This document shows positions 550 to 35,360 of a stretch of DNA of 64,000 bases, one piece after another. The notes under the pieces are model-generated. The model was not told the origin of the DNA. It searched no databases and worked only from the letters and a program-made list of their open reading frames with translations. The DNA is from Acidimicrobiales bacterium (GTDB lineage Bacteria > Actinomycetota > Acidimicrobiia > Acidimicrobiales > SHLQ01). The DNA lies in assembly GCA_020628865.1 (NCBI GenBank), contig JAHDEJ010000012.1, positions 62,001 through 126,000 of the forward strand, written 5' to 3'. The first letter of the stretch is position 1, and each line of letters begins with the position of its first letter. Made by a program: the position numbers and the translations under genes.

Positions 550-1046
550 GCGTCGACCCGGTCGGCCTGATCGAGCTGTCGCGCCGCCGGCAGGTCGCCA
601 AGGCCACCGCGCACGAGTGGTTCCGCAACCATCGGCTCCCTGAGCCGACGTATCCGTCGGTGAACGACCAGCCCGCCTGGGAATGGGCTGTGCTGGCGCC
701 GCTGTTCGACGACGACGCTCCGGTCCCGACCGAGATCGAAACGTGCGAACCGTACGGGATCGTCGAGACCGCAGCCTTGTTCGGCCTGAAGACCCGGACC
801 GTGCACACCTGGAAGACGGCCCGCAAGATCATGCCGCCATGCGACCACGATTCGGTCGCTGGCACCGGCGCATGGGAGCTTGACACGCTCTTCGAGTTCG
901 CCAACAAGCACGGCCGCATCTGGATGCTGCCTGAGTGGGCCCGCAAACGGATGCTGGCCGAGCACTACAACCACCATCGCCGCCTGTCCGCCGATTTCCG
1001 TGAAGAAGCCGAGACCGGTGTGCGCAGTGTGAGGCGCAGGAAATGA
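546..1046 (+). CDS. putative HTH DNA-binding protein
   Basis: GTG start overlapping previous stop; two HTH-like segments (RRRQVAKATAHEWFRNHRLP; ETAALFGLKTRTVHTWKTARK). Confidence 0.65.
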   Translation: MSVDPVGLIELSRRRQVAKATAHEWFRNHRLPEPTYPSVNDQPAWEWAVLAPLFDDDAPVPTEIETCEPYGIVETAALFGLKTRTVHTWKTARKIMPPCDHDSVAGTGAWELDTLFEFANKHGRIWMLPEWARKRMLAEHYNHHRRLSADFREEAETGVRSVRRRK

Positions 1047-1957
1047 GCGACGACATCGCACGCCTCGCCGTCCACCAGATTGCGCCCGGCGACAACGACC
1101 GCACCGAATTCAAGCAGGGCGACATCGACAACCTCGCTGCGTCGATGGCTCGTGTCGGCCTCATCCAACCGATCTCGGTGTTCCCGCTCGCTGAGGTGTC
1201 GACGCTGAACGACACGGGCGTCCGGTTCCGGCTGATCGCCGGTGAGCGCCGTTGGCGGGCCGCCTGCCAGCTCAAGTGGGACTACATCTCGGCTCGGGTC
1301 GTGAACGCCCCGGACGAGAAGGCCGCCGAAATGATGCTGGCCGAGAACCTGCTGCGCGTTGAGCTGAACCCGATCGACGAAGCGGTCGCCTACAAGTCGC
1401 GCCTCGACTCGGGCCTCGACGCCTCCGAGCTGTCCGCCGCGATCGGCAAGCCGGTCACCCAGATCCGGCGGATGACGTCGCTGCTCGACCTCGACGACAA
1501 GATCCGCCATCTGGTGCGGACCGGTCAGATGCCGGTCGGGATCGGTGTGCTCATGGCGCCCCTCGACCGGAACCGGCAGCACATCGCGTTCGCTGCGTGG
1601 CAGTCCAAGACCGACGGCATGCGCCACTCGGCAATGAAGGCGTTGTGCGCGCATCTGCTGATGGAGCAGAACCAGGAGTCGCTGCTCGACGCAGACGACT
1701 TCTTGCAGAACGAAGACGCGCTCGATGACCTGATCGAGTCCGCTGAGGCCGTCCGCAAGCTTCACTCGTCCGACCTGGTCTGGCTGGTCGACGACCTCGC
1801 TTCGATCATCGTCCACGAGTCCGAAACGCAGGGCCTGTCCATGGAGTCGCTGTGGCTGTGGGAGCTGGCCCGTCCGCTCGTTGATCGCATGACCGAACAG
1901 CGGGCCGGTGCGCTCGCAAGAAAGCAAGGAGGCGCCCGGTATGGCCGGACCGAATGA
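1043..1957 (+). CDS. ParB/Spo0J-like protein
   Basis: RLIAGERRWRAACQL and ENLLRVELNPIDEAVAYK, classic ParB N-domain motifs. Confidence 0.9.
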   Translation: MSDDIARLAVHQIAPGDNDRTEFKQGDIDNLAASMARVGLIQPISVFPLAEVSTLNDTGVRFRLIAGERRWRAACQLKWDYISARVVNAPDEKAAEMMLAENLLRVELNPIDEAVAYKSRLDSGLDASELSAAIGKPVTQIRRMTSLLDLDDKIRHLVRTGQMPVGIGVLMAPLDRNRQHIAFAAWQSKTDGMRHSAMKALCAHLLMEQNQESLLDADDFLQNEDALDDLIESAEAVRKLHSSDLVWLVDDLASIIVHESETQGLSMESLWLWELARPLVDRMTEQRAGALARKQGGARYGRTE

Positions 1958-2603
1958 GGAAATGAACGTCGAGCTGGTCGACATCGACAGTCTGGTGTTG
2001 GATCCGCGCAACGCCCGCCACAAGCACGACATCCCGGCGCTCGCCGATTCGTTGCGTGCCTTCGGGCAGCATCGCGCCGCGATCTGTCAGGTTTCGACTC
2101 GCAAGGTGATCGCCGGTAACGGCATGATCCTGGCCGCCCAGTCACTCGGCTGGACCACGATCAACGTGGTCTGGGTGGAGGACGACGACGAGAAGTCGAT
2201 CCGCCGCGGCATCGCCGACAACGCGACTGGCGATCAGTCGGCGTGGGACGACGACGTGTTGCGGTCGTTGCTCGACGAGGTCGGCATCGACATCCCTGGT
2301 GTCACCGACAAGATGATCGCCAGGCTCATGAAGGAAGAGGCGGACGAGGCCGAAGAGCCCCCGATCTATCCGCTGATCGCCCAACCCGGCGAGCGGTACA
2401 GCTACATGCTCGTCGTCGCGATGACGGAGATCGATGAGGTGTGGATGAAGTCGAACTTCGGTTTCCGCACCGAACAGGACCACAAGGCCGGAAAGAAGAT
2501 CGGGACGTGCCGCACGCTCACGATCGACCGTTTCCAGGGCCTGTTGGAAGAAATGGTTGAACGTCAGGTGCGGACGCGCCTGGCCGAACGAGAGGAAATC
2601 TGA
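1941..2603 (+). CDS. ParB-like domain protein
   Basis: IDSLVLDPRNARHKHDIPALADSLRAFGQHRAAI; KVIAGNGMILAAQSLG; DNATGDQSAWDDDVL. Confidence 0.85.
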   Translation: MAGPNEEMNVELVDIDSLVLDPRNARHKHDIPALADSLRAFGQHRAAICQVSTRKVIAGNGMILAAQSLGWTTINVVWVEDDDEKSIRRGIADNATGDQSAWDDDVLRSLLDEVGIDIPGVTDKMIARLMKEEADEAEEPPIYPLIAQPGERYSYMLVVAMTEIDEVWMKSNFGFRTEQDHKAGKKIGTCRTLTIDRFQGLLEEMVERQVRTRLAEREEI

Positions 2604-3106
2604 TGATCCCGTCCGAGCAACTTCGAGAACTGTTCGACGAACACCTTCCCGCCCAGCAAGCCAAGTGGCTTCGCGCCCGGCTCGATGAGGCCGACCGCAA
2701 CGAAGCCAAGGTCGCTGAGCTTGACAAGGTGGTGGAGCGGCTCACCGGTGAGGTGGAGGAGCTCCAGGAGGAAACCAGCCATCTGACTGTGCGCGCTGCG
2801 GAGAACAAGGCGAAGTACGACAACCTCGCCGACCGCGAAGCGGCCATCGCCAAGCAGGAAGCCGACCTCGCGCACCGAACCGAGATCGTCGACATCCGCG
2901 AGAAGCATGCGAAGGCCCGCGTCGAAGACCACCGGCACATGGTCGGCCTGGTGTTCCGCAACACCGAGCTCCGCCGCTCGATGACCGAGCCGCGCACCGT
3001 CCAGGACGCAGCGATCGTCTACAAGAACTCGGGCGATCAGGTGATGGAACCGGCCGGCGAGCACATCGAGTACGTGACCACCGAGACGGCCGAAGAGGCC
3101 AAGTGA
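2603..3106 (+). CDS. coiled-coil hypothetical protein
   Basis: ORF, heptad-rich Glu/Lys sequence, ATG overlap. Confidence 0.7.
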   Translation: MIPSEQLRELFDEHLPAQQAKWLRARLDEADRNEAKVAELDKVVERLTGEVEELQEETSHLTVRAAENKAKYDNLADREAAIAKQEADLAHRTEIVDIREKHAKARVEDHRHMVGLVFRNTELRRSMTEPRTVQDAAIVYKNSGDQVMEPAGEHIEYVTTETAEEAK

Positions 3107-3780
3107 TGTTCCAGCTCGACCCGGTCGATCGGCCCGGCGTCCTGCCGATGCCCCGGATCGACGTCGACAGCATCGACTGGCGGGCCGAACACGGCGTTCA
3201 CTCGTGGAGCCTCGATCATGTCATCCGCAAAGGCACCCCGACGGTGGCCAGGATGGCGGCCGATCTGATCAACGTCCGCGACCGGTTCCGTGACCTTCAT
3301 CCGGGTCTGTTCGATGTCTGCGACGTTCGGGTCCAACGGCTGATGCCCGGCATGTTCCCGTCGATCCCCGGCTGGCATTGCGACGACGTCCCTCGTAATG
3401 GCTACCACTCGCAACCCGACCTGGGGGCGGCCCGCAACGGCGTCGGCCATGTTGTCGGCACTCTGTCGTCGAGCGGGGAAGGCGTGTCGCGCACCGAGTT
3501 CGTCGCCGAGGAGATGGCGTCGTTCCGGCCGATCACCGACGAACCGGTGTGGCGTCAGCTCCACCGGCACGTCGAAGAGGGCGAACCCGCCACCTGGCGG
3601 GCGCCGGATGGCTGGTGGGTGCCGATCACCTGGCGCACCCCACATCGGGCGACCCCGGCGGTGCGGCGTGGCTTCCGGATCTTCTTCCGCATGTCGATGC
3701 GGCCGAGGCCGGCCCACGACGAGCCCCAAGACCGAACCGTCGAGCAGGTCTACCTGCTCACCGAAGAGAACGGCTGGTGA
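3106..3780 (+). CDS. TET/JBP-like 2-oxoglutarate/Fe(II) dioxygenase
   Basis: PSIPGWHCDDVPR (HxD) and distal PHRATPAVRRGFRIFFRMSM (H...R) double-stranded beta-helix motifs. Confidence 0.65.
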   Translation: MFQLDPVDRPGVLPMPRIDVDSIDWRAEHGVHSWSLDHVIRKGTPTVARMAADLINVRDRFRDLHPGLFDVCDVRVQRLMPGMFPSIPGWHCDDVPRNGYHSQPDLGAARNGVGHVVGTLSSSGEGVSRTEFVAEEMASFRPITDEPVWRQLHRHVEEGEPATWRAPDGWWVPITWRTPHRATPAVRRGFRIFFRMSMRPRPAHDEPQDRTVEQVYLLTEENGW

Positions 3781-3782
3781 CC

Positions 3783-4100
3783 ATGGCGTTCAACGACCCT
3801 GACAAGCAGGTGCCGGTGTCCGAGCTGCTCGAGGACGGCATCGTCGCCGAGGTCAACCGGATCATGCTCCACCCGCTCGGCCTGGCCCTGTGGGTGAACG
3901 GCGAGACGGGCGAGCTCGGCATCTACAAGGACGACGACCCGGCCGGAATCATCTTCCAACCGGGCATGGATCTGTCGCGCCGGCATCAGGCCTACGACTC
4001 CCGGTACCTCGAAGCATCCAGGCATCGCAACGAAGCGCACGACTTCATCGTGCAACCCCGCAACCAACTGATTGGAGAAATTGATGCTGACCCCTCGTGA
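3783..4100 (+). CDS. hypothetical protein
   Basis: ORF in operon, start MAFNDPDKQ. Confidence 0.65.
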   Translation: MAFNDPDKQVPVSELLEDGIVAEVNRIMLHPLGLALWVNGETGELGIYKDDDPAGIIFQPGMDLSRRHQAYDSRYLEASRHRNEAHDFIVQPRNQLIGEIDADPS

Positions 4101-4383
4101 AGCTGCCTGCTACCGGGCCGGAGCCGCTGCCGCCAAGGGCGACTACGACGAAGCGGCCGCTCTGATGCTCGACAACTTCGACGTCACCGAGGACGCTGAG
4201 CAGCCGGACCCGACCCTGGACCAGTACGACATCTACGTCGACATTCCCGCCGATCCGACCCTGATGCCGTGGGTGCACGCCATCAACCATGCGATGGGTG
4301 GCGCCGCTCCGACTGCGCTCGAGGCCGGCCACACCCGCTACCAGGTCACAGGCGTCAAGAAGATCTTCGAAAAGGAAGCCTGA
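4084..4383 (+). CDS. hypothetical protein
   Basis: ORF MLTPREAACYRAG, overlaps next ATG. Confidence 0.65.
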   Translation: MLTPREAACYRAGAAAAKGDYDEAAALMLDNFDVTEDAEQPDPTLDQYDIYVDIPADPTLMPWVHAINHAMGGAAPTALEAGHTRYQVTGVKKIFEKEA

Positions 4384-5222
4384 TGGACCGCGACGACATC
4401 ACGGCACCCGAACCGATCCCCGAGGAGCTGCAGGGCGGCTGGGTCCCGGGCGAGACCTACTGCCAGGTGGTCGTCCCGTCGCATCATCGGCCCGACAAGG
4501 TCGACGTGCTCGACTCCGGGCTGCTGCGCCCCGACCAGATCATCCTGTGCGTCGCCGATGACCAGGTCGACCAGTACCGCGATAAGTACCCCGACGTCGA
4601 ATACTCGGTGCACCCCGCCGACATGATCGGCCTGTCGCTCAAGCGCGGCTGGATCATGGAGCGGCACGGCAACGTGTGCATGCTCGACGACGACGCCCGG
4701 GTCGCCGTGAACTTCGAGTCGTACGCGTCGAACCCGAACGGCTACCCGATCACCGACCCCGATGAGGTGATGATGCTGATCCAGCGTCACGCCGCCTCGA
4801 TGCTCGAGCTCGGCGTCTACCTGGGTGGCCTCTCGTCGTACAACGACGTCCGCTCGTACTGTTCGCTGCGGCCGTTCAAGCTCGTCGGCTACGTCCGCGG
4901 CACCCCGATGTTCATCATGGCCGGCTCGAAGATCACCTTCACCCCCCGCATCGTAGGAAAAACCGACTACTGGGCATCAGCTATGAACGCATTCCATCAT
5001 CGGATGACGTTCGTCGACCTCCGCTACACCATCCACTCCGATGGGGGAGCGTTCGTGAACGAGGGCGGCACGGCCGGCCACCGCACCACCGCGTCGGAGA
5101 ACCGCGACAACAAGATCCTCCGGCGCACCTTCGGGTCGGACACGTTCCAGAAGAAGAAGCCCAAGGAGTTCGCCGGCACCTTCAACCAGGAAGGCGTGAC
5201 GTTCCGCGTCCCCTGGGGATGA
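4383..5222 (+). CDS. GT-A-fold glycosyltransferase-like protein, TAGT-like
   Basis: CQVVVPSHHRPDKV nucleotide-binding start, MERHGNVCMLDDDARV (DDD metal motif); lies between TET-like gene and thyX. Confidence 0.6.
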   Translation: MDRDDITAPEPIPEELQGGWVPGETYCQVVVPSHHRPDKVDVLDSGLLRPDQIILCVADDQVDQYRDKYPDVEYSVHPADMIGLSLKRGWIMERHGNVCMLDDDARVAVNFESYASNPNGYPITDPDEVMMLIQRHAASMLELGVYLGGLSSYNDVRSYCSLRPFKLVGYVRGTPMFIMAGSKITFTPRIVGKTDYWASAMNAFHHRMTFVDLRYTIHSDGGAFVNEGGTAGHRTTASENRDNKILRRTFGSDTFQKKKPKEFAGTFNQEGVTFRVPWG

Positions 5223-6079
5223 GCGAGTTCATCCGCCTCGACAACGGGACTCTCGACGTCGGCGCCATCTTCCACGACGGCACCGTCCGCACCTACCACG
5301 GCCCACCAGAGGACTTCCCCGAAGACTTCTGGCGCCCCAACGCTGAAAGGCACCCCATGCGCATTACCTCTGACCTCACGGTCGACCTGATCCAACATGT
5401 TGGCGGCGATGACGCCGTCCTCGACGCGATGCTCGTCTCCACGCTCACCGACCGGCTCGCCGGCAGCGACGCCGACCCTGGCCGTGACGCCGGCCGCATC
5501 AACTTCCTGATGGCCAACCGGCACGGCTCCCCGTTCGAGCACAACCTGATGACGTTCCGTGTCACCGCCCCGATCGCCGTGTTCCGCGAATGGCATCGGC
5601 ATCGCATCGGCTGGTCGTACAACGAACAGTCGGGCCGCTACACCAAGTTCGAACCGCACTTCTACCTTCCGGCAGCGAATAGGCCGATGGTCCAGGTCGG
5701 CAAACCGGGCGCCTACGAGTTCGAACCCATCGAGCAGGAGCACTACGACGCGATCGCTTCAGGGATGGTCGCCTCGTTCGCCGAGTCGTGGCGCAAGTAC
5801 GAGGAGCTGCTCGACATCGGCGCAGCGAAGGAGGTCGCCCGCGGTGTCCTCCCGGTCTATGTGATGTCGACGATGTATGCGACGTGCAACGCCCGGTCGT
5901 TGATGTCGTTCCTGTCGCTGCGCCGCAAGAAGAACCTCGAAGGCGGCCCGGAGCCGGTGTTCCCGTCGTTCCCGATGTGGGAGATCGACGAGTGCGCCGA
6001 GCAGTGCGAGCGCCTCTTCGCCGAGCTGTTCCCGCTCACCTACCAGGCGTACATCGCCAACGGCCGCGTCGCCCCCTGA
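5219..6079 (+). CDS. thyX: flavin-dependent thymidylate synthase (or homologous pyrimidine-modifying enzyme)
   Basis: RHGSPFEHNLMTFRVTAPIAVFREWHRHRIGWSYNEQSGRYTKF. Confidence 0.92.
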   Translation: MSEFIRLDNGTLDVGAIFHDGTVRTYHGPPEDFPEDFWRPNAERHPMRITSDLTVDLIQHVGGDDAVLDAMLVSTLTDRLAGSDADPGRDAGRINFLMANRHGSPFEHNLMTFRVTAPIAVFREWHRHRIGWSYNEQSGRYTKFEPHFYLPAANRPMVQVGKPGAYEFEPIEQEHYDAIASGMVASFAESWRKYEELLDIGAAKEVARGVLPVYVMSTMYATCNARSLMSFLSLRRKKNLEGGPEPVFPSFPMWEIDECAEQCERLFAELFPLTYQAYIANGRVAP

Positions 6080-6102
6080 CGCCCGGAATGTGTGTCACGG
6101 CT

Positions 6103-6384
6103 CTAGGACGGTGCGCCCAGCAGCGGCCGCTTGAAGTAATAGGCCAACTGTGCGTTCGACCGCCCGCCCATGACGTTCGAGTTGGGGCGGTCGGTTACGG
6201 AGACGAGCTCCCATCCGAGCTGCCCGACGTAGTTCAGGATCTCGTGGATGTGGTCGAAGTCCTTGTCGTCGAGCACCCACTTCTGTTTCGGGATGTCCCA
6301 GCAGGTGGCTGGGATCAAGGTGAAGTACTTCCATTGCTGCGCGACGGCCATTGTGCCTGTCGCTTTGTCCGGTGTCTGGTCCAT
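6103..6384 (-). CDS. DUF4177-like small protein
   Basis: WKYFTLIP...ILNYVGQLGWELVSVTD...AYYFKRP pattern; one of few minus-strand genes. Confidence 0.75.
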   Translation of the reverse strand: MDQTPDKATGTMAVAQQWKYFTLIPATCWDIPKQKWVLDDKDFDHIHEILNYVGQLGWELVSVTDRPNSNVMGGRSNAQLAYYFKRPLLGAPS

Positions 6385-6498
6385 GGGCTCCCTGTCTCGA
6401 CCTAGGCCTTCGACCCTATGAGATTCCGCTTCAGCACGCCCGGCTTGATACTTCGGGAGTATCTGCCACGCTCCGTTGACCCAACGGAAAGGACCACC

Positions 6499-6699
6499 AT
6501 GAGATCCCAACTCGAGCTGCGCGAAATGGCAGCCGCGTACCAACCGCCAGAGGGCGAACCCCATGCTCCGGTGCACTGCGGAGTCGAGGCTGCGCTGCTG
6601 TGGGCGGCTGGCGACATCACCGTCGACGACCTCCACAACATCGTCGAGGACGCATGGCGAGACGCCAACACCGACGACTGGATGGCGGCCCAGCTATGA
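6499..6699 (+). CDS. hypothetical protein
   Basis: SD GGAAAGGACCACC-ATG; overlaps methyltransferase start. Confidence 0.75.
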   Translation: MRSQLELREMAAAYQPPEGEPHAPVHCGVEAALLWAAGDITVDDLHNIVEDAWRDANTDDWMAAQL

Positions 6700-8153
6700 G
6701 CATCACAGTCATGGATCTCTTCTGCGGCGCTGGAGGTTCCAGCCTTGGCGCCGAGCGGGTGGCCGGCGTCGAGTTGCGGCTCGCGATGAACCATTGGCAG
6801 AAGGCCATCGACGTTCATCAGCAGCACTTCCCCGATGCCGGCCATGACTGCGCCGACATCTCCCAAGCCGATCCGCGCCGGTATGAGCGCACCGACATCC
6901 TGCTGGCGTCGCCTGAGTGCACGAACCACAGCCAAGCGAAGGGTGTGTCTCGCAAGAAGCAGCAGCAGTCGTTGTTCGACAAACCTGATCCGTCGGCCGA
7001 GCGGTCGAGGGCGACGATGTGGGATGTGCCTCGGTTCGCCGAGCAGATGTTCTACGACGCGATCGTCGTCGAGAACGTGGTTGAGGCCACCAAGTGGGTC
7101 GGTTGGCGCGCCTGGTGCATGTCGATGGAGGACCTCGGCTATCAGCGGACGGTCCTGTCGCAGAACTCGATGTTCCATGGTGTGCCCCAGTCCCGTGACC
7201 GGATCTACGTCGTGTTCACCCGCAACGGGTTGAACCCGGATCTCGAGTTCACTCAGCTGGCCCACTGCCCGATCTGTCCTGGGTCTCGTCGGCGTCGGTG
7301 CCGTCAGGTGTTCAAGAACGCTCAGCGCATCGGCAAGTACAAGACGCAGTGGTTCTGGGCGTGCACCGGCTGCGGCGGGCAGGTGCATCCGGAGGTGAAC
7401 GGCGCCGAGCAGATCATCGACTGGTCGCTCGAAGCGCCCCGCATCGGTGACCGGAAGAAGCCGCTGAAGCCGAACACCAGGAAACGGATCCTGGCCGGCC
7501 TCCAGCGGCACGGCTGGGTTCCCGTGGTCACGGCCGGCGCGGGGAACACCCATGAGCGGACACCGGGCAATCGGGCCCGGCCTCTCGATCAGCCGTTGGC
7601 CACCCAGCAGACGACGGCCACCCACGCTCTGGCGACGCCGCCGAGCTCGTTTCTGTTCCAGACGGCGCACGGCGGCCGGTTCCATGAGCTCGACGCCCCG
7701 CATCCGACGATCTGCGCTTCCGATGATCGGCTGTCGCTCATCGAGCCGTCCGAGGACGCGCTGCTCGTGTCCATGCGGAGAAACGGCACCGCTCAACCGC
7801 TCTCCAAGCCCGCAGGGGCCTTCACCGCGGGCGGGAACAACCATGCCCTCCTGGTCCGCAACCAGCGGCTCACACAGGGAGACAACGGCTGGATGACGAC
7901 GTCGACCGATGATCCGGTGCACACGCTCACCGGGAAGCAGTCCCAGTCGGTGCTCGACCCGGCCGAGGTCGTCGACGACTGCGGGTTCCGGATGCTCGAA
8001 CCGTACGAAGCGGCGGCAGCGATGGCGTTCCCGACCGGCTACATCCCGCGGGACCTGGACAAGAAGGACCAGATGAGGCTGGCAGGCAATGCCGTCACCC
8101 CGCCGGTCATGACGCCCATCGTCCGCCGGATCGTCGAAGCGATGGCCGCATGA
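6696..8153 (+). CDS. C5-cytosine DNA methyltransferase
   Basis: VMDLFCGAGGSSLGAERV (motif I), SPECTNHSQAKG (motif IV, PEC), VVENVVEA (VI), VPQSRDRIYVVF (VIII), MRLAGNAVTPPVM (X). Confidence 0.95.
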   Translation: MSITVMDLFCGAGGSSLGAERVAGVELRLAMNHWQKAIDVHQQHFPDAGHDCADISQADPRRYERTDILLASPECTNHSQAKGVSRKKQQQSLFDKPDPSAERSRATMWDVPRFAEQMFYDAIVVENVVEATKWVGWRAWCMSMEDLGYQRTVLSQNSMFHGVPQSRDRIYVVFTRNGLNPDLEFTQLAHCPICPGSRRRRCRQVFKNAQRIGKYKTQWFWACTGCGGQVHPEVNGAEQIIDWSLEAPRIGDRKKPLKPNTRKRILAGLQRHGWVPVVTAGAGNTHERTPGNRARPLDQPLATQQTTATHALATPPSSFLFQTAHGGRFHELDAPHPTICASDDRLSLIEPSEDALLVSMRRNGTAQPLSKPAGAFTAGGNNHALLVRNQRLTQGDNGWMTTSTDDPVHTLTGKQSQSVLDPAEVVDDCGFRMLEPYEAAAAMAFPTGYIPRDLDKKDQMRLAGNAVTPPVMTPIVRRIVEAMAA

Positions 8154-14641: not shown

Positions 14642-15008
14642 GATTGATCCGCGGCGGTCGTTGACCCGCGAACAGGTCGTGGAGATCTACACGACCGCGG
14701 TCCCGTCGGGTGTGCTCGCTGAGCGCTTCGGTGTGGCCGTGCACACGGTCAACGCAGTCCGGCACGACGACAGCTACCTCGACATCACGAAAGACCTCGA
14801 GCAGCCGCCGTTGATCGGCCACACCCGATACGGCCGCAAGGATGTCCAGTGGCGGACGGTCTGCACCGATCCCGACCATCCATCGACCCCGGCCGATGGC
14901 TGCACGGTGTGCCTGCTGTTGCATGACCGGGAGATCTCGGAGGGTTCCCGCCGGATCGTCGACGGTGTCCTTGCCCGCCGAAGCAGCCCTGCGGTGGTGA
15001 TGGCATGA
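14631..15008 (+). CDS. HTH-like hypothetical protein
   Basis: LTREQVVEIYTTAVPSGVLAERFGVAVHTVNAVRHD. Confidence 0.65.
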   Translation: MANEIDPRRSLTREQVVEIYTTAVPSGVLAERFGVAVHTVNAVRHDDSYLDITKDLEQPPLIGHTRYGRKDVQWRTVCTDPDHPSTPADGCTVCLLLHDREISEGSRRIVDGVLARRSSPAVVMA

Positions 15009-15712
15009 CGACGTTCGATCTGGGCGGCTCCGAGCTGCTCTGCCAGGGCATCGTCGGCTCGACCGCGTACGGGCTCGCCACCGAAGATTCCGACGTCGAC
15101 CGACTCGGCCTCTACATGGATCGACTGCCCGAGATCCTGGCGATGGGGTACAAGCCGCACAAGGCCTCGAAGGTGTTCCGGGACCCTGACGCCCAGTTCC
15201 ATGAGATCGGCAAGTTCTTGTCGCTGGTGTGCGGAGGGAACCCGACGGTCACCGAGCTGCTGTTCCTCGACGGCTGGGAACACCTCGACCCTCGACTGAG
15301 TCTGCTGGTCGACTCGAGGTTGAAGCTGCTGGGTGCCCGGCGGGTCCGCGACTCCTACATCGGGTATGCGACCGATCAGGCGAAACGGCTGCTGCGCCGC
15401 TCCCAATCGGGCGAGGACGGTTTCGACGTGAAGAAGAAGACCGGCAAGCATGGCCGGCATTGCTGGCGGCTGTTGCACCAAGGCGCCGATCTGTTGCGCA
15501 CCGGCAGCTTCGACGTGAACGTCGCCGAGCATCGCGACGAGATCTTCGCTGCCGGCCGCCTCGCTGAGGCTGACCCGCAGGACTTCTACGAGCTGTTCAA
15601 GATCAAACGGGCGATGCTCGATCAGATCGTTCCGGTGATCGACGACGAACCGGACTACCGGTGGGTGAACGACTGGCTGTTCGACCTGCGAATCGAAGCG
15701 TGGGGTGAGTGA
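15005..15712 (+). CDS. nucleotidyltransferase, RlaP/PF10127-like
   Basis: CQGIVGSTAYGLATEDSDVDRLGLY (GS..G...DxD), VCGGNPTVTELLF, YIGYATDQAKRL. Confidence 0.8.
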   Translation: MTTFDLGGSELLCQGIVGSTAYGLATEDSDVDRLGLYMDRLPEILAMGYKPHKASKVFRDPDAQFHEIGKFLSLVCGGNPTVTELLFLDGWEHLDPRLSLLVDSRLKLLGARRVRDSYIGYATDQAKRLLRRSQSGEDGFDVKKKTGKHGRHCWRLLHQGADLLRTGSFDVNVAEHRDEIFAAGRLAEADPQDFYELFKIKRAMLDQIVPVIDDEPDYRWVNDWLFDLRIEAWGE

Positions 15713-28836: not shown

Positions 28837-29098
28837 ACGCGTCTCGCCCCCAATTCGGGTATTCGATCAGGCCCGCCGGCGCCGTCACCATCGGCAGCAT
28901 CTCGAGGAACGGTCGGGTCGATCGGCCTCGGACCTTCACGAACAGGCGCGGGTCGTCCCAGTGCTCGGCGCACTCCCACTCGATCTCGTCGGCGTCGACG
29001 TGTGCCGGGGCTCGGCCTTCGAGCCGTTCCCACATGAGCGGATCGTGCCCGTCCCACTCGGTGACCCGCCAGCAGACCGGGCACCAGCACTCACGCAT
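28835..29098 (-). CDS. hypothetical protein
   Basis: MRECWCPVCWRVTEWDGHDPLMWERLEG. Confidence 0.6.
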   Translation of the reverse strand: MRECWCPVCWRVTEWDGHDPLMWERLEGRAPAHVDADEIEWECAEHWDDPRLFVKVRGRSTRPFLEMLPMVTAPAGLIEYPNWGRDA

Positions 29099-29996
29099 CA
29101 ACCGTGTCCCAGTTCTCCACGACCGTCCTGCGATAGCGGACACCGTCCGGCCACACCACCCCACCTGCGGGTGGTTTCGGCATGTCGGCGCCGGTTGCGA
29201 CGTCGATCGAGTGAGCGAACACCGGGATGCCGCACCGTTCGGCCATCGCGATCGACGGTGACATGCGCGGGTTGACCTCGGTGATCGTCACCTTCCCCGC
29301 TGGCGTGATGAACCCCTGCACGTTGTGCGGGCCGATCACCCGACACGCCTTCACGGCCCGGCCGGCCGCATCGGCGATGTTCGGATGGAACCTCGAAACG
29401 CCTTCGATGGTGAGGCCGCCGAGTGTGCGGCGCCGTTCGTAGGCGACCATGCACACGAGCTCGTGCTCGTCGTTGGCGAACCCCTCCGTGTTGAACTCGA
29501 CCCCCTCCGCGTGCGCTTGGATGAACGGGCCGCCGTTCGCCGGGCCGATCAGGTCGATCGCCGCGGTCGCCGCCGTCAAGCTCCGGCAGTAGAACACGTC
29601 CCGGCTTCCCCGGCCGTCATCGGGTTTGATCACGATCCGCTTCGCATCCCAGGCGTCCTGCCCCCACTTCGGTGACGGCACCTGGTGCTTGTCGAACTGG
29701 ACCGCCATCTTCGTCTTCGACCGGCAGATCTCGACCGCCCGCATGTTGAACGGCACCGACGGCAGACCCGCCTTCTCCACCGCCCACATCTCCTCGATCA
29801 TCCCCGGGATCACGACATCGGGTTTCCAGGCTTCCAACCATTGAGGGAGGGAGTGGTCACCGGCTTTCGGGATCTTCAGATCGCCGTCAAACGCATGGTC
29901 CACCCCGATGGGTCGGTGACCGTTGGCGGCGGCGACACGGCAGATCACCTCGCCTCCCATCGCAGCAGTGGTGACCAGGACACGGTGGCTTTGCAT
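29091..29996 (-). CDS. ATP-grasp domain protein (CarB-like)
   Basis: VLVTTAAMGGEVICRVAAANG; RIVIKPDDGRGSRDVFY; GGPFIQAHAEGVEFNTEGFAN; GKVTITEVNPRMSPSIAMAE. Confidence 0.85.
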   Translation of the reverse strand: MQSHRVLVTTAAMGGEVICRVAAANGHRPIGVDHAFDGDLKIPKAGDHSLPQWLEAWKPDVVIPGMIEEMWAVEKAGLPSVPFNMRAVEICRSKTKMAVQFDKHQVPSPKWGQDAWDAKRIVIKPDDGRGSRDVFYCRSLTAATAAIDLIGPANGGPFIQAHAEGVEFNTEGFANDEHELVCMVAYERRRTLGGLTIEGVSRFHPNIADAAGRAVKACRVIGPHNVQGFITPAGKVTITEVNPRMSPSIAMAERCGIPVFAHSIDVATGADMPKPPAGGVVWPDGVRYRRTVVENWDTVDA

Positions 29997-30046
29997 AGGG
30001 CGCGATGCTATACCAGTATCATGATCCGCTCTTGTTGGAGGTGTTG

Positions 30047-31201
30047 GTGAAGGATCTGCGAATCGCTGTTGTTGGGCTCGGCTATGTCGGACTGCCGTTG
30101 CTGATCGGCCTGAAGAAGGCCGGATTCCGGAATCTCGTCGGCGTCGACGTCGACGAAGGCAAGATCGCCGACATCCGTGCTGGAGGCCGGCAGGGCTACG
30201 ACTCATTCGGCCGCGACGAAGACATGCAGGCCTACGTCCGAGGCGTCCAGAGCACGCCAGTTTCGACCCCCGCCGAGCTGGACCCGGTCGACATCGCGAT
30301 CATCTGCGTGCCAACGCCGCTCGAGAAGGGCTCCACATACCCGGACCACAGCTACGTGCTTGCTGCGGTCGAGTCGATGGCCAGCAAGGCCAACCTGATC
30401 ATCCTGGAATCGACCGTGGCCCCCGGGTTCACCGAGTCCCTGCAGGACATGTACCCGCTGGTGAAGTTCGCGTTCGCCCCCGAACGCGTCTCGCCGGGCA
30501 CCGGCCGGGACCCGAAGGAATGCGCCAAGGTCGTCTCGGCCACCGACCCCGTCGCCCTCGTCGCTGTCCAGGCCCTCTACGGCGAGCTGCATGAAGAGGT
30601 GCACGCCGCGTCGTCCACGACCGTGGCTGAGTTGACGAAGCTGCTCGAGAACTGCTTCCGAGCGGTGAACATCGCGTTCGCCAACGAGTTCGCCGACCTC
30701 GCCCGCTACACCGGCGTCGACCCCCGAGAAGTCGTCGAGCTCGCCTCCACGAAACCGTGGGGGTTCATGCCGTTCTGGCCGTCGGCCGGGCCGGGCGGAC
30801 ATTGCATTCCCGTCGACCCGTTCTTCGCGCTCTCCGCCGCCCCAGGCCGCAGTCTGATGCGGGTCCTCCACCAGGCCGTTGCCTCGAACCGCGACCGCGT
30901 CCACCAGATCGCCGAAATCGTCCTCGCCGCCTTCGACGCTCGACCCGAAGAGTTCGCCGAGAAGAACATCCTGATCGCCGGCATGGGCTACAAGCCCGGC
31001 GTCGACGACCGCCGCGAATCCCGAGGCGAAGCGCTCGCCGAGATCCTCCGAAACAAGGGCCTGCCGGTGGCGACGCTCGAGTTCGGTGACCGCGACCTGC
31101 ACGAACGGATCGGCGACGCCGCCGTGATCGTCGACATGCACGGTCAGGTCATCGGCTTCGACGAGCCCGGCTGGCCGGCGAAGGTGGATTGCACGGCGTG
31201 A
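30047..31201 (+). CDS. NDP-sugar 6-dehydrogenase (UDP-GlcNAc/ManNAc dehydrogenase family)
   Basis: LRIAVVGLGYVGLPLLIGL; ICVPTPLEKGSTYPD; LESTVAPGFTE; SAGPGGHCIPVDPFF; VDDRRESRG. Confidence 0.93.
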   Translation: MKDLRIAVVGLGYVGLPLLIGLKKAGFRNLVGVDVDEGKIADIRAGGRQGYDSFGRDEDMQAYVRGVQSTPVSTPAELDPVDIAIICVPTPLEKGSTYPDHSYVLAAVESMASKANLIILESTVAPGFTESLQDMYPLVKFAFAPERVSPGTGRDPKECAKVVSATDPVALVAVQALYGELHEEVHAASSTTVAELTKLLENCFRAVNIAFANEFADLARYTGVDPREVVELASTKPWGFMPFWPSAGPGGHCIPVDPFFALSAAPGRSLMRVLHQAVASNRDRVHQIAEIVLAAFDARPEEFAEKNILIAGMGYKPGVDDRRESRGEALAEILRNKGLPVATLEFGDRDLHERIGDAAVIVDMHGQVIGFDEPGWPAKVDCTA

Positions 31202-31851
31202 ACGTCGACGGCGCCCGCCTTCTCGTTGTCGCCCCACATGCGGACGACGAATCGATCGGCTCCGGCGGTCTGATCGCGCGGGCGATCCGAACCGGCGGGT
31301 CGTGTCGGGTGTTCACGATGCGCATCGAGCACGACCGGCGCCGCGACGAACTCGGCGACGCCGCCCACCAGCTCGGCTTCCAATCGTGGATCTCGCAACG
31401 TTCCCGAACCCCGGTCGATGAACGCGACTCGTTCGAGATGGTCGCCGAAATCGAACAGGTCATCGGCGTCGACGAACCAGACATCGTCGTCATGCCCCAC
31501 TACGGGCACGCCCACCAGGAACATCGGGCGACCGCGAACGCGGTGTTGGCGGCGTGCCGCCCGAACAGCGGATCGGACCGGTTCCGTCCGCCGGTCGTGC
31601 TCGTCGCCGAACAACCGAACGACGTGTGGTCGTTGGGGGAGCGGCCCCGAATCCAATGGTCGATCGAGCTGACCCCCGAAGATCTCCAGGCGAAGATCGA
31701 CGCCGTACTCTGCCACTCGTCGCAGGTCCGGCCCGCCCCATCCGAACGGTCGATCGACGCAATCCGGTCGCTGGCTGCGCTGCGCGGCTCGCAGGTCGGT
31801 TCCCCGCTCGCCGAAGCGTACGAAGTGGTGCGCTGGCATCAGGCGGCCTGA
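31198..31851 (+). CDS. PIG-L/LmbE-family deacetylase
   Basis: LLVVAPHADDESIGSGGLI; VVMPHYGHAHQEHRATANAVLAA; GTG start overlapping upstream stop. Confidence 0.9.
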   Translation: MNVDGARLLVVAPHADDESIGSGGLIARAIRTGGSCRVFTMRIEHDRRRDELGDAAHQLGFQSWISQRSRTPVDERDSFEMVAEIEQVIGVDEPDIVVMPHYGHAHQEHRATANAVLAACRPNSGSDRFRPPVVLVAEQPNDVWSLGERPRIQWSIELTPEDLQAKIDAVLCHSSQVRPAPSERSIDAIRSLAALRGSQVGSPLAEAYEVVRWHQAA

Positions 31852-32529
31852 ATGCCGACCCCTGACGCACCCGGGAACACCGGGCAACGGCCGCCCGGCC
31901 ACAACCAGGGCACCAACCGCCGTACCGGTCCGGGCCGCGCCGCCATCTTGGAGAAGGGTTGGCTCGGCGTCGAAGCGTACGACCCCGAAATCGACGACTG
32001 GCCGTGGGACGAAGACTCGCCGGCCGAACGATTCCTGCGCGCGACCGTGGCGTCGAACCCGCGTCGGACGTGCTGTGCGTGGGCGGGGATCGCCATGTCG
32101 ACGTTGAAGTCGTGGCTGACCCGGGCCCGCACCGTGCTCGACAACGCCGGTCTCGACGAGCTGATGCCCCGCGAGATGGTGCCGTGGCATCTGATCCCCG
32201 CCGAAGACCACATCTACGTCGACTTCTACCTCGCCTACCTGAAAGCCATGGCGAGAGATGAGACGTCGCTGGTGCTCAACATTCGCAAAGCCGCCCGAGA
32301 CGACTGGAAGGCGTCGGCGTGGCTGTTGCAGCGTCGACATGGCGACGAATGGCAGGACCCCGACAAGCGGGTCACCGTCTCCGGTGATGCCGACAATCCG
32401 CTCGTTGTCGAGAAGCGCACCAAGTCGCTCGACGCGATGCTCGCCGAAGCAGCCACCGCCCAGGCTGAAATCGTCCCCTCGGCTCCCGAACTCGAACCAG
32501 CCGCAGAAAGCGATGTGCCTGACGGCTGA
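31852..32529 (+). CDS. terminase small subunit (putative)
   Basis: immediately upstream of TerL; Gly/Pro-rich N-terminus then HTH-like CCAWAGIAMSTLKSWLTRA. Confidence 0.6.
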   Translation: MPTPDAPGNTGQRPPGHNQGTNRRTGPGRAAILEKGWLGVEAYDPEIDDWPWDEDSPAERFLRATVASNPRRTCCAWAGIAMSTLKSWLTRARTVLDNAGLDELMPREMVPWHLIPAEDHIYVDFYLAYLKAMARDETSLVLNIRKAARDDWKASAWLLQRRHGDEWQDPDKRVTVSGDADNPLVVEKRTKSLDAMLAEAATAQAEIVPSAPELEPAAESDVPDG

Positions 32530-35360
32530 TGTCACCCCGCAAACCACCCGGACTTGTACTTCCAGGTGATCAAGAACCCGAGCCGATCCCGCAGGTGTTG
32601 CGGCTCGAAGACGGAACCCTTCATCCGTCCTGCCCGGTCGCGGACGTGCTGCGCAACGAGCTCGCCGTGATGAACAAGATCGGTGTCGAGCTCGGCATCG
32701 GCTCCAACGAGTTCGTCACCAAACGGGCCGAGATCCTCCGCGCCGCGTTGGACATCGGCTGGTGGGAACTCTGGCTGAAAGGCATTGCGACGTCGTGGGT
32801 GTCGAAGCCGTTCGCCGGCTGGCACTACCGGCTGTGGCAGTGGGCGATGGCCATCGAACCCGGCGTCCGACCGTCCCCGCTCGTCGTGTGCGCGCCCCGT
32901 GGCTCCGGCAAGGCGTTGCCTCTCGACACGCCGATCCCGACACCGGACGGCTGGACCACGATGGGCGAACTCGCCGTCGGCGACCCGGTACTGGGACCAA
33001 ACGGGTGTTCGACTACGGTCAGTGCTGTGACCGAAACCATGCACCACCGCGTGTGGCGCGTCACGTTCGATGATGGCGCCGAGATCATCGCCGACAGCGA
33101 CCACCAGTGGACAGTCATCGACCAGGCCGCCGAGGACCGCGAATGGGCAGGCCGCACCAACGGCAAGGCCAACAAGCGCGCCCGGATCCGCAAGTGGGGG
33201 CCGCAATGGTGGGCGCACCCGGCAGCGCGCACCATGACCACCCTCGACCTCGTCGAAGCCGGCCTTCACTACGACGACAGGCCCGGCCATCGGGCCCGAC
33301 GATGGGGGATCGGCCTCGGAGTCCGCGACGGCGCTGAAGCCGACCTTCCGATCGACCCGTACCTGTTCGGCTACTGGCTCGGCGACGGCGACCGCAACGG
33401 GGCACGGATCACCGTCGGCGACGAAGACCTCGGCCCGCTCCAGGTGGCGCTATTCGCGTTAGACGAGCCGGTGTCGTCCACGTACACCGACCCTCGCACC
33501 GGCGCGCACACCCTGCAGCTCGGGCCCGGCCGCCGCGGGCCGGTCGCTGGCCGGTTCCGCACACGCCTTCGACATCTCGGCGTGCTCGGCGACAAGCGCA
33601 TCCCGGCCGCCTACCTGACGGCGTCGATCGAGCAACGCAAGGCGCTGTTGTCGGGGCTCGCCGATTCTGACGGCTCCCATGCCTCAGGTGCCTCCGTTGA
33701 GATCACGCAGATGAAGAAGGACCTGGCCGACGACATCGTGGAGCTCGCCGACGGGCTCGGCTACAAGACGACCATTTCGGCGTCCGACGCAAAGCTCAAC
33801 GGCCGTGTCGTCGGCACCCGCCATCGGATCCGGATCCGCTGCCAGGAGAACCCGTTCCGGCTCGAACGCAAGGCCGAACGGTGGTCGGCGCCGAAGTTCG
33901 GTGCGGCCCGGTTCATCGAGTCGATCGAACCGCTCGAGGACCCGATCGATGTGCGGTGCATCACGGTCGACAATGACGCCGAGCTGTATCAGGCTGGCCG
34001 CCGCCACATCGTCACCCACAACACCGCGATGCTCCAGCTCGTCACGTTGGCGCTCGCTGCCCGCCGGACCCGCAACTATGCGATCTACGTCGGCGCCACC
34101 CAATCCGCAGTGGAGGACAAGGTCGCCGGCATCGGCGAACTCATCCAATCCGAGGTGATGGCGCAGGCCTACCCGGAGGTCTCGAGGATCTACACGACCA
34201 ACACCGGATCCCGCCGCGACTGGCGCAAGTCCCGTATCCGCACCAACTCCGGGTTCACGCTCGACGCCTTCGGTCTCGATCAGGCGATTCGTGGTGCTCG
34301 TGTCGACGACGACCGTCCCGGCTTCATCTGCGCGGACGACATCGAATCGCAGACCGACACCGCCTACATGACGCAGAAACGGCAGGACGCGTTGACGAAG
34401 GCCGTCCTCCCGTCCGGCTCGGACGATGCGGCGATCGTGTTCATCCAGAACAAGATTCATCAGGCGTCGCTGATGGCGCAGCTCCTCGACGGGACCGCCG
34501 AGTTCATGGCCGACCGGGTCGCCATCGGCCCGATCCGCCAGGTCGACAACCTCACCTACGTCGAACGCGAACCGACCCCCGGCGACGGCCGACGGTACGT
34601 GATCACCGGCGGCACCCCCACCTGGGAAGGCTTGGACCTGAAGACGTCAGAGCAGGAGATGAACGACCTCGGCCTCTCCGCGTTCATGACCGAGAAGCAG
34701 CAGGAGGACTGGGAACCGGAAGGCAACATGTTCCCGTCCCGATACTGGCGACACGACACGACCGACCCGACCCGACGGCGCTGGCTGTCGATGTGTCGGG
34801 CATGGGACCTCGCCGGCACCGAAGCCAAGGACGCCGACTACACGGTCGGCGCGTTGATGGGGATCATCGATGTCAACGACGAGCTCCAGGTCCACGTCCT
34901 GCACGTCGAACGGTTCCAGCTCGAGGTCGCCGGCGTCGAGCAGATGGTGAAGCACACTGCCCAGCTCGACCGGCTCGACTTCGGCCGGCACATCCCGATC
35001 GTCCTCGAAGAACAGCCCGGCGCTGCGGGCAAGGCGTGGAAGCGGCAGTGGTCCAAGCACCTGTTCGGCCATTCCGTCTGGTTCGTCCCACCACAAGGGT
35101 CGAAGACGATTCGCGCCGAACCCGGCGCCTCGGTGCTCCAGCAGGGGCTGGCGTATCTGAACGGCGGGAAGTGGATGAACCGGTTCATGCGCGAGCTCGG
35201 CGCGTTCCCGACCGGCCGCAACGACGACCAGGTCGACGCCTACGCGCTTGGCTACAACTGGATGGCTGACCGGCTCGGCGTCAACAAGAAGGGTTCGCTG
35301 CACCGCAGGTCCGCCCAGGTTCGGGTCGAGCATCGTGCAGCGCTGCCGCCCGCCTCCTAA
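32529..35360 (+). CDS. terminase large subunit containing an intein
   Basis: Walker A CAPRGSGK^T split by intein; GFICADDIESQ Walker B-like; RDTTDP...CRAWDLAGTEAKDADYTVG nuclease domain. Confidence 0.9.
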   Translation: MSPRKPPGLVLPGDQEPEPIPQVLRLEDGTLHPSCPVADVLRNELAVMNKIGVELGIGSNEFVTKRAEILRAALDIGWWELWLKGIATSWVSKPFAGWHYRLWQWAMAIEPGVRPSPLVVCAPRGSGKALPLDTPIPTPDGWTTMGELAVGDPVLGPNGCSTTVSAVTETMHHRVWRVTFDDGAEIIADSDHQWTVIDQAAEDREWAGRTNGKANKRARIRKWGPQWWAHPAARTMTTLDLVEAGLHYDDRPGHRARRWGIGLGVRDGAEADLPIDPYLFGYWLGDGDRNGARITVGDEDLGPLQVALFALDEPVSSTYTDPRTGAHTLQLGPGRRGPVAGRFRTRLRHLGVLGDKRIPAAYLTASIEQRKALLSGLADSDGSHASGASVEITQMKKDLADDIVELADGLGYKTTISASDAKLNGRVVGTRHRIRIRCQENPFRLERKAERWSAPKFGAARFIESIEPLEDPIDVRCITVDNDAELYQAGRRHIVTHNTAMLQLVTLALAARRTRNYAIYVGATQSAVEDKVAGIGELIQSEVMAQAYPEVSRIYTTNTGSRRDWRKSRIRTNSGFTLDAFGLDQAIRGARVDDDRPGFICADDIESQTDTAYMTQKRQDALTKAVLPSGSDDAAIVFIQNKIHQASLMAQLLDGTAEFMADRVAIGPIRQVDNLTYVEREPTPGDGRRYVITGGTPTWEGLDLKTSEQEMNDLGLSAFMTEKQQEDWEPEGNMFPSRYWRHDTTDPTRRRWLSMCRAWDLAGTEAKDADYTVGALMGIIDVNDELQVHVLHVERFQLEVAGVEQMVKHTAQLDRLDFGRHIPIVLEEQPGAAGKAWKRQWSKHLFGHSVWFVPPQGSKTIRAEPGASVLQQGLAYLNGGKWMNRFMRELGAFPTGRNDDQVDAYALGYNWMADRLGVNKKGSLHRRSAQVRVEHRAALPPAS
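32913..34022 (+). other. intein (370 aa) with LAGLIDADG endonuclease, class 3-like
   Basis: starts ALPLDTPIPTPDGWTTMGEL, ends RCITVDN...YQAGRRHIVTHN^T; LAGLIDADG blocks LFGYWLGDGD and LLSGLADSDG. Confidence 0.93.

Follow-up and report, generated by a model that had tools for sequence, protein, structure and literature searches.

Whether a prophage of an Acidimicrobiales bacterium carries a complete route from cytosine to a glycosylated base in its DNA is the question raised by a short gene run in the stretch analysed here, a window of 64,000 nucleotides that spans bases 62001-126000 of contig C73 (JAHDEJ010000012.1; 127,442 bp) in a genome of 5.36 Mb and 113 contigs. The original prediction had read three open reading frames (ORFs) of this run as a C5-cytosine methyltransferase (C5-MTase), a TET/JBP-like dioxygenase and a TET-associated glycosyltransferase (TAGT), acting in phage DNA in the order cytosine, 5-methylcytosine (5mC), 5-hydroxymethylcytosine (5hmC) and glycosylated 5hmC. 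This would recall the phage cytosine hypermodification clusters in which, as Burke et al. reportedly described in PNAS in 2021 (cited in PMC12730594), a TET enzyme (Tet_JBP, PF12851) is combined with a C5-MTase and a TAGT. We find that the locus is a prophage TAGT and C5-MTase locus of a known kind in which the TET step is unsupported: the methyltransferase and the glycosyltransferase of the proposed pathway stand on profile matches and motifs, whereas its middle enzyme has no Tet_JBP match. The three genes are:

3106-3780, plus strand: 2-oxoglutarate (2OG)-Fe(II) oxygenase of phage family phrog_1843 (E 5.6e-30), non-TET/JBP
4383-5222, plus strand: TAGT-family glycosyltransferase with a DDD motif (PF20691, E 3.7e-12; phrog_842, E 1.8e-11)
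6696-8153, plus strand: C5-cytosine DNA methyltransferase with a SPEC-type motif IV and a CxxC...CxxC insert (PF00145, E 2.6e-29; phrog_116, E 1.2e-63)

All three ORFs were recovered at these coordinates, with a GC content at third codon positions (GC3) of 0.83-0.86 and the codon-position GC of genes in this region, and on these grounds, together with homology, they are real genes. They sit in one co-directional gene run with overlaps.

The product of 4383-5222 was correctly predicted to be a glycosyltransferase of the TET-associated type. It scored 47.1 bits against PF20691 (curated cut-off, 27.5) and includes CMLDDDARV; the DDD motif, D195, GG228-229 and R234 showed no variation across six TAGT-like proteins of different phages. 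An AlphaFold (AF2) model built from six sequences had a pLDDT of 46 and was unusable for fold assessment. With the T6-type glycosyltransferases of PF20691/phrog_842, which add a second glucose to glucosyl-hmC, the protein shares both families, the DDD motif and the invariant D, GG and R residues, but it is 19-26% identical to its aligned relatives and, unlike the T6-type case, no enzyme that makes hydroxymethylcytosine was found in this genome. PF20691 occurred in 1 of 395 genomes searched from the host's class, namely this one, and the TAGT used as sole query against viral contigs gave no confirmed match. Among TAGT genes elsewhere, the neighbour is a TET gene in one viral record (G794) and a directly adjoining thymidylate-synthase-superfamily gene in two others (G760 and G776). 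At two loci (L112, 5685-7285; L114, 5886-7453) TAGT adjoins and overlaps a thymidylate-synthase-superfamily gene of phrog_160, which suggests that those phages introduce the hydroxyl acceptor at the nucleotide level. A ParB-like gene accompanies TAGT at locus L093 and in Microbacterium phage Gina and its relatives; in Gina a UDP-glucose dehydrogenase homologue adjoins TAGT as well, and the complete Gina genome lacked matches to Tet_JBP, C5-MTase and phrog_1843. In T6-like phages, hydroxymethylcytosine is made at the nucleotide stage and TAGT is assigned to the addition of a second glucose (PMC13390438), so a TAGT is in itself no evidence of a TET enzyme.

The methyltransferase assignment likewise held. 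Motifs I, IV, VI, VIII and X can be read in 6696-8153 as FCGAGG, SPEC, ENV, QSRDR and GNAVTPPV, and by these motifs and its PF00145 match the protein is an intact C5-MTase; motif IV is, by our own reading, a PEC variant, accompanied by the CxxC...CxxC insert. It resembles the actinophage-type C5-MTases of phrog_116, with closest relatives on viral contigs that are 39% (L014) and 35% (L015) identical, the former with the same SPEC variant of motif IV. Unlike the gene studied here, which has a TAGT close by, these relatives show neither TET nor TAGT in their vicinity.

The oxygenase had been called TET/JBP-like from its HxD...H...R pattern. It contains GWHCDD and HRATPAVRRGFRIFFR, and the residues of the pattern (H91, D93, H180 and R191) were kept in 51 of 51 aligned phrog_1843 members, so that its occurrence is far beyond chance. 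The protein had no match in Pfam or NCBIfam, and its family in PHROGs, phrog_1843, is without a functional annotation. Its AF2 model (pLDDT 87, pTM 0.86) was compared with the PDB by Foldseek, and the top matches were mostly 2OG enzymes at weak similarity (E ~1e-3, TM ~0.4). Those recognisable were KanJ, HygX, an N-substituted amino-acid dioxygenase, a prolyl hydroxylase (P4H) and FIH, enzymes that act on small molecules or proteins; no TET structure was present among the 50 best matches. Judging from motif and predicted double-stranded beta-helix fold, 3106-3780 is very probably a 2OG/Fe(II) oxygenase, which in itself does not point to TET.

The family is widespread. Relatives of phrog_1843 were detected by tblastn in 420 phage records, including RB69 (ORF132c), other T4-like phages, Certrevirus and phages of Mycobacterium and Gordonia, where they are mostly annotated as hypothetical and in a few cases as 2OG-Fe(II) oxygenase, and a search of IMG/VR yielded 83 loci, which fall into 50 clusters at 80% identity. 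Homologues also occur on bacterial contigs (L116-L118: Paraburkholderia, Desertivirga and a metagenome-assembled genome of Bdellovibrionaceae), one with a C5-MTase gene ~4 kb downstream (L117) and one with chromosomal-looking neighbours (L118). The protein studied here aligns over nearly its full length, with catalytic residues kept, to RB69 ORF132c, Cronobacter phage CR3_049 and Mycobacterium phage Nanosmite gp132. In RB69-type phages the modified base is arabinosyl-5-hydroxycytosine, which has no methyl group and is formed while still a nucleotide, by an enzyme of the thymidylate synthase superfamily (PMC13390438).

Is this oxygenase nevertheless a TET/JBP enzyme? The HxD...H...R pattern on which that reading was based is common to the whole 2OG-Fe(II) superfamily and so is not diagnostic. 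The Tet_JBP model (PF12851) matched neither 3106-3780 nor any of the 51 phrog_1843 members at E up to 1, while the same model, as a positive control, found a genuine TET in G794 at 4.2e-22, the one true TET in the 50 virus records searched. For profile comparison we assembled six phage TETs, namely that of G794 and the TET-like proteins of Arthrobacter phage Ottawa, P12024L, HTVC112P, Cr30 and S-CBWM1; hhalign of the phrog_1843 profile against them returned probabilities of 0.1-0.4% (0.4% for the six-TET profile). Active-site spacing also differs, with 78-102 residues from His to His and 11 from His to Arg in all 51 phrog_1843 members vs. 53 and 17 in the TET of G794, and the G...GG...P block that phage TETs carry between HxD and the distal His is missing from the phrog_1843 alignment. 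Gene context agrees. In G794, a 167-kb phage contig, the TET gene, a gene that we read as P-loop-kinase-like, a phrog_3271 gene and the TAGT gene lie in a row (L111, 4820-8510), and a separate phrog_1843 gene lies 97 kb from this cluster, beside a NAMPT gene; phrog_1843 was absent from all of the other TET-bearing phage records (5 of 5: Ottawa, P12024L, HTVC112P, Cr30 and S-CBWM1). A TET/JBP assignment for 3106-3780 is therefore rejected on HMM search, profile comparison, active-site spacing and gene context, and what stands of the original prediction for this protein is its motif pattern and general oxygenase fold. That these two features mark a true but very divergent TET is very unlikely and has been largely refuted by the failed Tet_JBP and hhalign comparisons, the missing block, the other spacing and the coexistence of phrog_1843 with a genuine TET in one phage. 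With regard to the naming of phage TETs, relatives of the G794 protein carry the annotation SNF2 DNA repair protein in phages Cr30 and DLP6, and gp2 of Mycobacterium phage Cooper has been named as TET-like (PMC12730594).

The gene neighbours of phrog_1843 point elsewhere. Neighbourhood counts were taken from Pfam searches of whole records, since both phmmer and small custom-built HMMs gave too few ParB and C5-MTase genes in the vicinity of phrog_1843 (the ParB of L093 escaped phmmer, and one MTase in G787 escaped the custom HMM). TAGT was found in 5 of the 47 viral phrog_1843 records searched for TAGT and C5-MTase (one match being sub-threshold), at 7, 22, 25, 41 and 97 kb from phrog_1843, and thus in none of the five within 4 kb, as by chance; C5-MTase was found in 4 of the 47, once within 4 kb, again as by chance. 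NAMPT, on the other hand, was present in 14 of 50 phrog_1843 records and lay within 4 kb in eight of these, where 1.2 were expected (P = 3.6e-6 under uniform placement, a null that ignores the modularity of phage genomes and residual relatedness). The adjacent loci are L001, L002, L003, L038, L046, L064, L067 and L084 (records G756, G799, G801, G764, G771, G769, G794 and G788, respectively), and at L001 a NadM-like gene is also near. Phages of medium and large size commonly carry NadV/NAMPT (PMC9503650); what is unusual is its closeness to phrog_1843, and not its presence. No oxygenase is mentioned in the main text of a survey of NAD systems in phages published in 2022 (PMC9503650). Since NAMPT is its strongest genomic neighbour, an auxiliary role of phrog_1843 tied to NAD or small-molecule metabolism is suggested. 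The relatives examined lie near NAMPT, nudix, endolysin, RtcB and replication genes and not, as here, TAGT and C5-MTase.

The remaining genes of the run, and others in the window that bear on DNA modification or on the phage nature of the region, are:

1043-1957, plus strand: ParB-like protein with ParB_N and HTH_ParB domains (PF02195, E 6.7e-15; PF17762, E 2.9e-9; phrog_3264)
1941-2603, plus strand: second ParB-like protein (phrog_620, E 1.2e-26; PF02195 sub-threshold, 0.0018)
2603-3106, plus strand: coiled-coil-like protein, encoded between the second ParB gene and the oxygenase gene (coding GC3 pattern; coiled-coil matches weak)
4072-4383, plus strand: small protein directly upstream of the glycosyltransferase (coding GC3 pattern; no Pfam or PHROG family match)
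5219-6079, plus strand: ThyX flavin-dependent thymidylate synthase of ordinary phage type (TIGR02170, E 3.2e-48)
30005-31201, plus strand: UDP-glucose/GDP-mannose dehydrogenase family, a possible donor-sugar enzyme (PF03721, E 1.2e-22; PF00984, E 1e-21)
31189-31851, plus strand: PIG-L family deacetylase, a possible sugar-tailoring enzyme, overlapping the dehydrogenase gene (PF02585, E 2.7e-14)
32529-35360: large terminase carrying a LAGLIDADG/Hom_end insertion in an intein-like arrangement

Two ParB-like genes had been said to lie directly upstream. Both are present, and the gene at 2603-3106 stands between them and the oxygenase. The original prediction linked ParB genes with the TET/JBP loci of phages, and this is borne out by gp72-74 of Arthrobacter phage Ottawa and gp17-18 of Pelagibacter phage HTVC112P; ParB also accompanies TAGT in phages with no detected TET, however, and hence is no proof that 3106-3780 is one. 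The ThyX gene, missed by the original prediction, lies between the TAGT and C5-MTase genes and overlaps the TAGT stop with its start at 5219. It was considered as a hydroxymethylase, as its RHR motif seemed one residue longer than usual, and this was rejected because a Gordonia phage ThyX, 50% identical, has the same motif spacing; we therefore regard it as ordinary. Also missed was the dehydrogenase and PIG-L pair at 30.0-31.9 kb. Together with an ATP-grasp gene on the minus strand it occupies 29091-31851, just before the small terminase gene, and is possibly part of a sugar-nucleotide tailoring set; a UDP-sugar dehydrogenase followed by PIG-L makes an unusual donor sugar conceivable.

Over its left 57.6 kb the contig resembles bacterial chromosome, and phage-like genes run from ~57.9 kb through to the contig end, which probably makes the region a prophage that lacks its right end in the assembly. 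Its phage nature is backed by the large (32529-35360) and small terminases. No tyrosine integrase (PF00589) was found on the contig in a search that did not extend to serine integrases, and no near-identical DNA was found among phage records. Elsewhere in the window, 15005-15712 encodes an RlaP-type nucleotidyltransferase (PF10127, an RNA repair family) and 18780-19721 matches PHROG families annotated as superinfection exclusion (2.8e-48).

Taken together, the reading that we favour, with a probability of roughly 0.6, is that the TAGT and the C5-MTase are genuine DNA-modification enzymes, that the oxygenase is not a TET and has some other function, and that the hydroxyl group comes from a source either unrecognised or past the contig end. 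The early region of the prophage would then encode a TAGT-family glycosyltransferase that moves a sugar from a nucleotide-sugar donor onto a hydroxylated pyrimidine in phage DNA and a separate, intact C5-MTase that makes 5mC at its own sites, both modifications presumably shielding the phage DNA from host nucleases. ThyX would supply dTMP, the phrog_1843 oxygenase most likely does not oxidise 5mC, and the hydroxyl acceptor would come from an enzyme that has so far escaped recognition or was lost where the contig breaks off. Neither Tet_JBP nor a thymidylate-synthase-type hydroxymethylase (PF00303) was found in the whole genome, and hence no recognised enzyme makes the hydroxyl for TAGT. Several observations weigh against this reading. 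The phrog_1843 protein is the only recognised oxygenase near the TAGT gene, and because no other hydroxyl-making enzyme is recognised, a TET-like substitution would complete the pathway; the genes form a single co-directional, overlapping run; the order ParB-ParB-x-oxygenase resembles ParB-ParB-TET of phage Ottawa; and no NAMPT was present among the window proteins scanned, so that the NAMPT association is not directly applicable to this prophage.

Much of this could be accommodated by non-orthologous replacement, which we consider unlikely: the MTase would make 5mC, the oxygenase of phrog_1843, or of this branch of the family, would convert 5mC to 5hmC, and TAGT would glycosylate the product. 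Besides the gene run, the lack of another candidate and the Ottawa-like gene order, this account can draw on record G760, which has a TAGT, two C5-MTase genes and phrog_1843 and lacks Tet_JBP; in that record, however, phrog_1843 lies 22 kb from the TAGT gene, and it is the thymidylate-synthase-superfamily gene that adjoins TAGT. By HMM, profile, spacing and gene neighbourhood phrog_1843 is no TET, some of its members belong to T4-like phages, in which modified cytosine arises in other ways, and the relatives of the TAGT and the nearest relatives of the MTase occur with no phrog_1843 nearby. Slightly less probable still is that phrog_1843 replaced TET here by oxidising 5mC (or thymine) in DNA to feed TAGT as a second, independently evolved route. 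The general likeness to the TET/C5-MTase/TAGT clusters (C5-MTase near TAGT, ParB-like genes upstream, an oxygenase in the same run) stands alongside differences: the oxygenase is of phrog_1843 rather than Tet_JBP, ThyX intervenes, and no kinase or second glycosyltransferase was recognised near this locus. Rather doubtful, and below both of these, is the idea that TAGT acts on another acceptor, such as 5-hydroxymethyluracil (5hmU) derived from thymine, a base that already bears a sugar, or a substrate other than DNA, with a uronic or deacetylated sugar supplied by the dehydrogenase and PIG-L at 30-32 kb. The closest phage relatives of the TAGT (the Gina group) adjoin ParB and UDP-glucose dehydrogenase with neither Tet_JBP nor C5-MTase, T6-like homologues are assigned to a second glucose (PMC13390438), and genes for a UDP-sugar dehydrogenase and a PIG-L protein are present in the prophage itself. 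As in the Gina cassette (gp88-90), ParB, TAGT and the dehydrogenase are thus found in one genome; unlike in Gina, C5-MTase and oxygenase genes are added and the dehydrogenase lies 25 kb from TAGT, where it could serve another pathway.

TAGT-bearing prophages are rare in the class of the host, as the single PF20691 genome indicates, and the locus advises caution in calling an HxD...H...R oxygenase a TET on the grounds that TAGT and methyltransferase genes lie beside it. Should TET in fact have been replaced here by the oxygenase, there would be a second enzymatic way of producing hydroxymethylated DNA, and the protein would be new as a tool enzyme. Beyond this prophage, phrog_1843 emerges as a candidate oxygenase family present in more than 400 phage records and linked non-randomly to the NAD salvage genes of phages.

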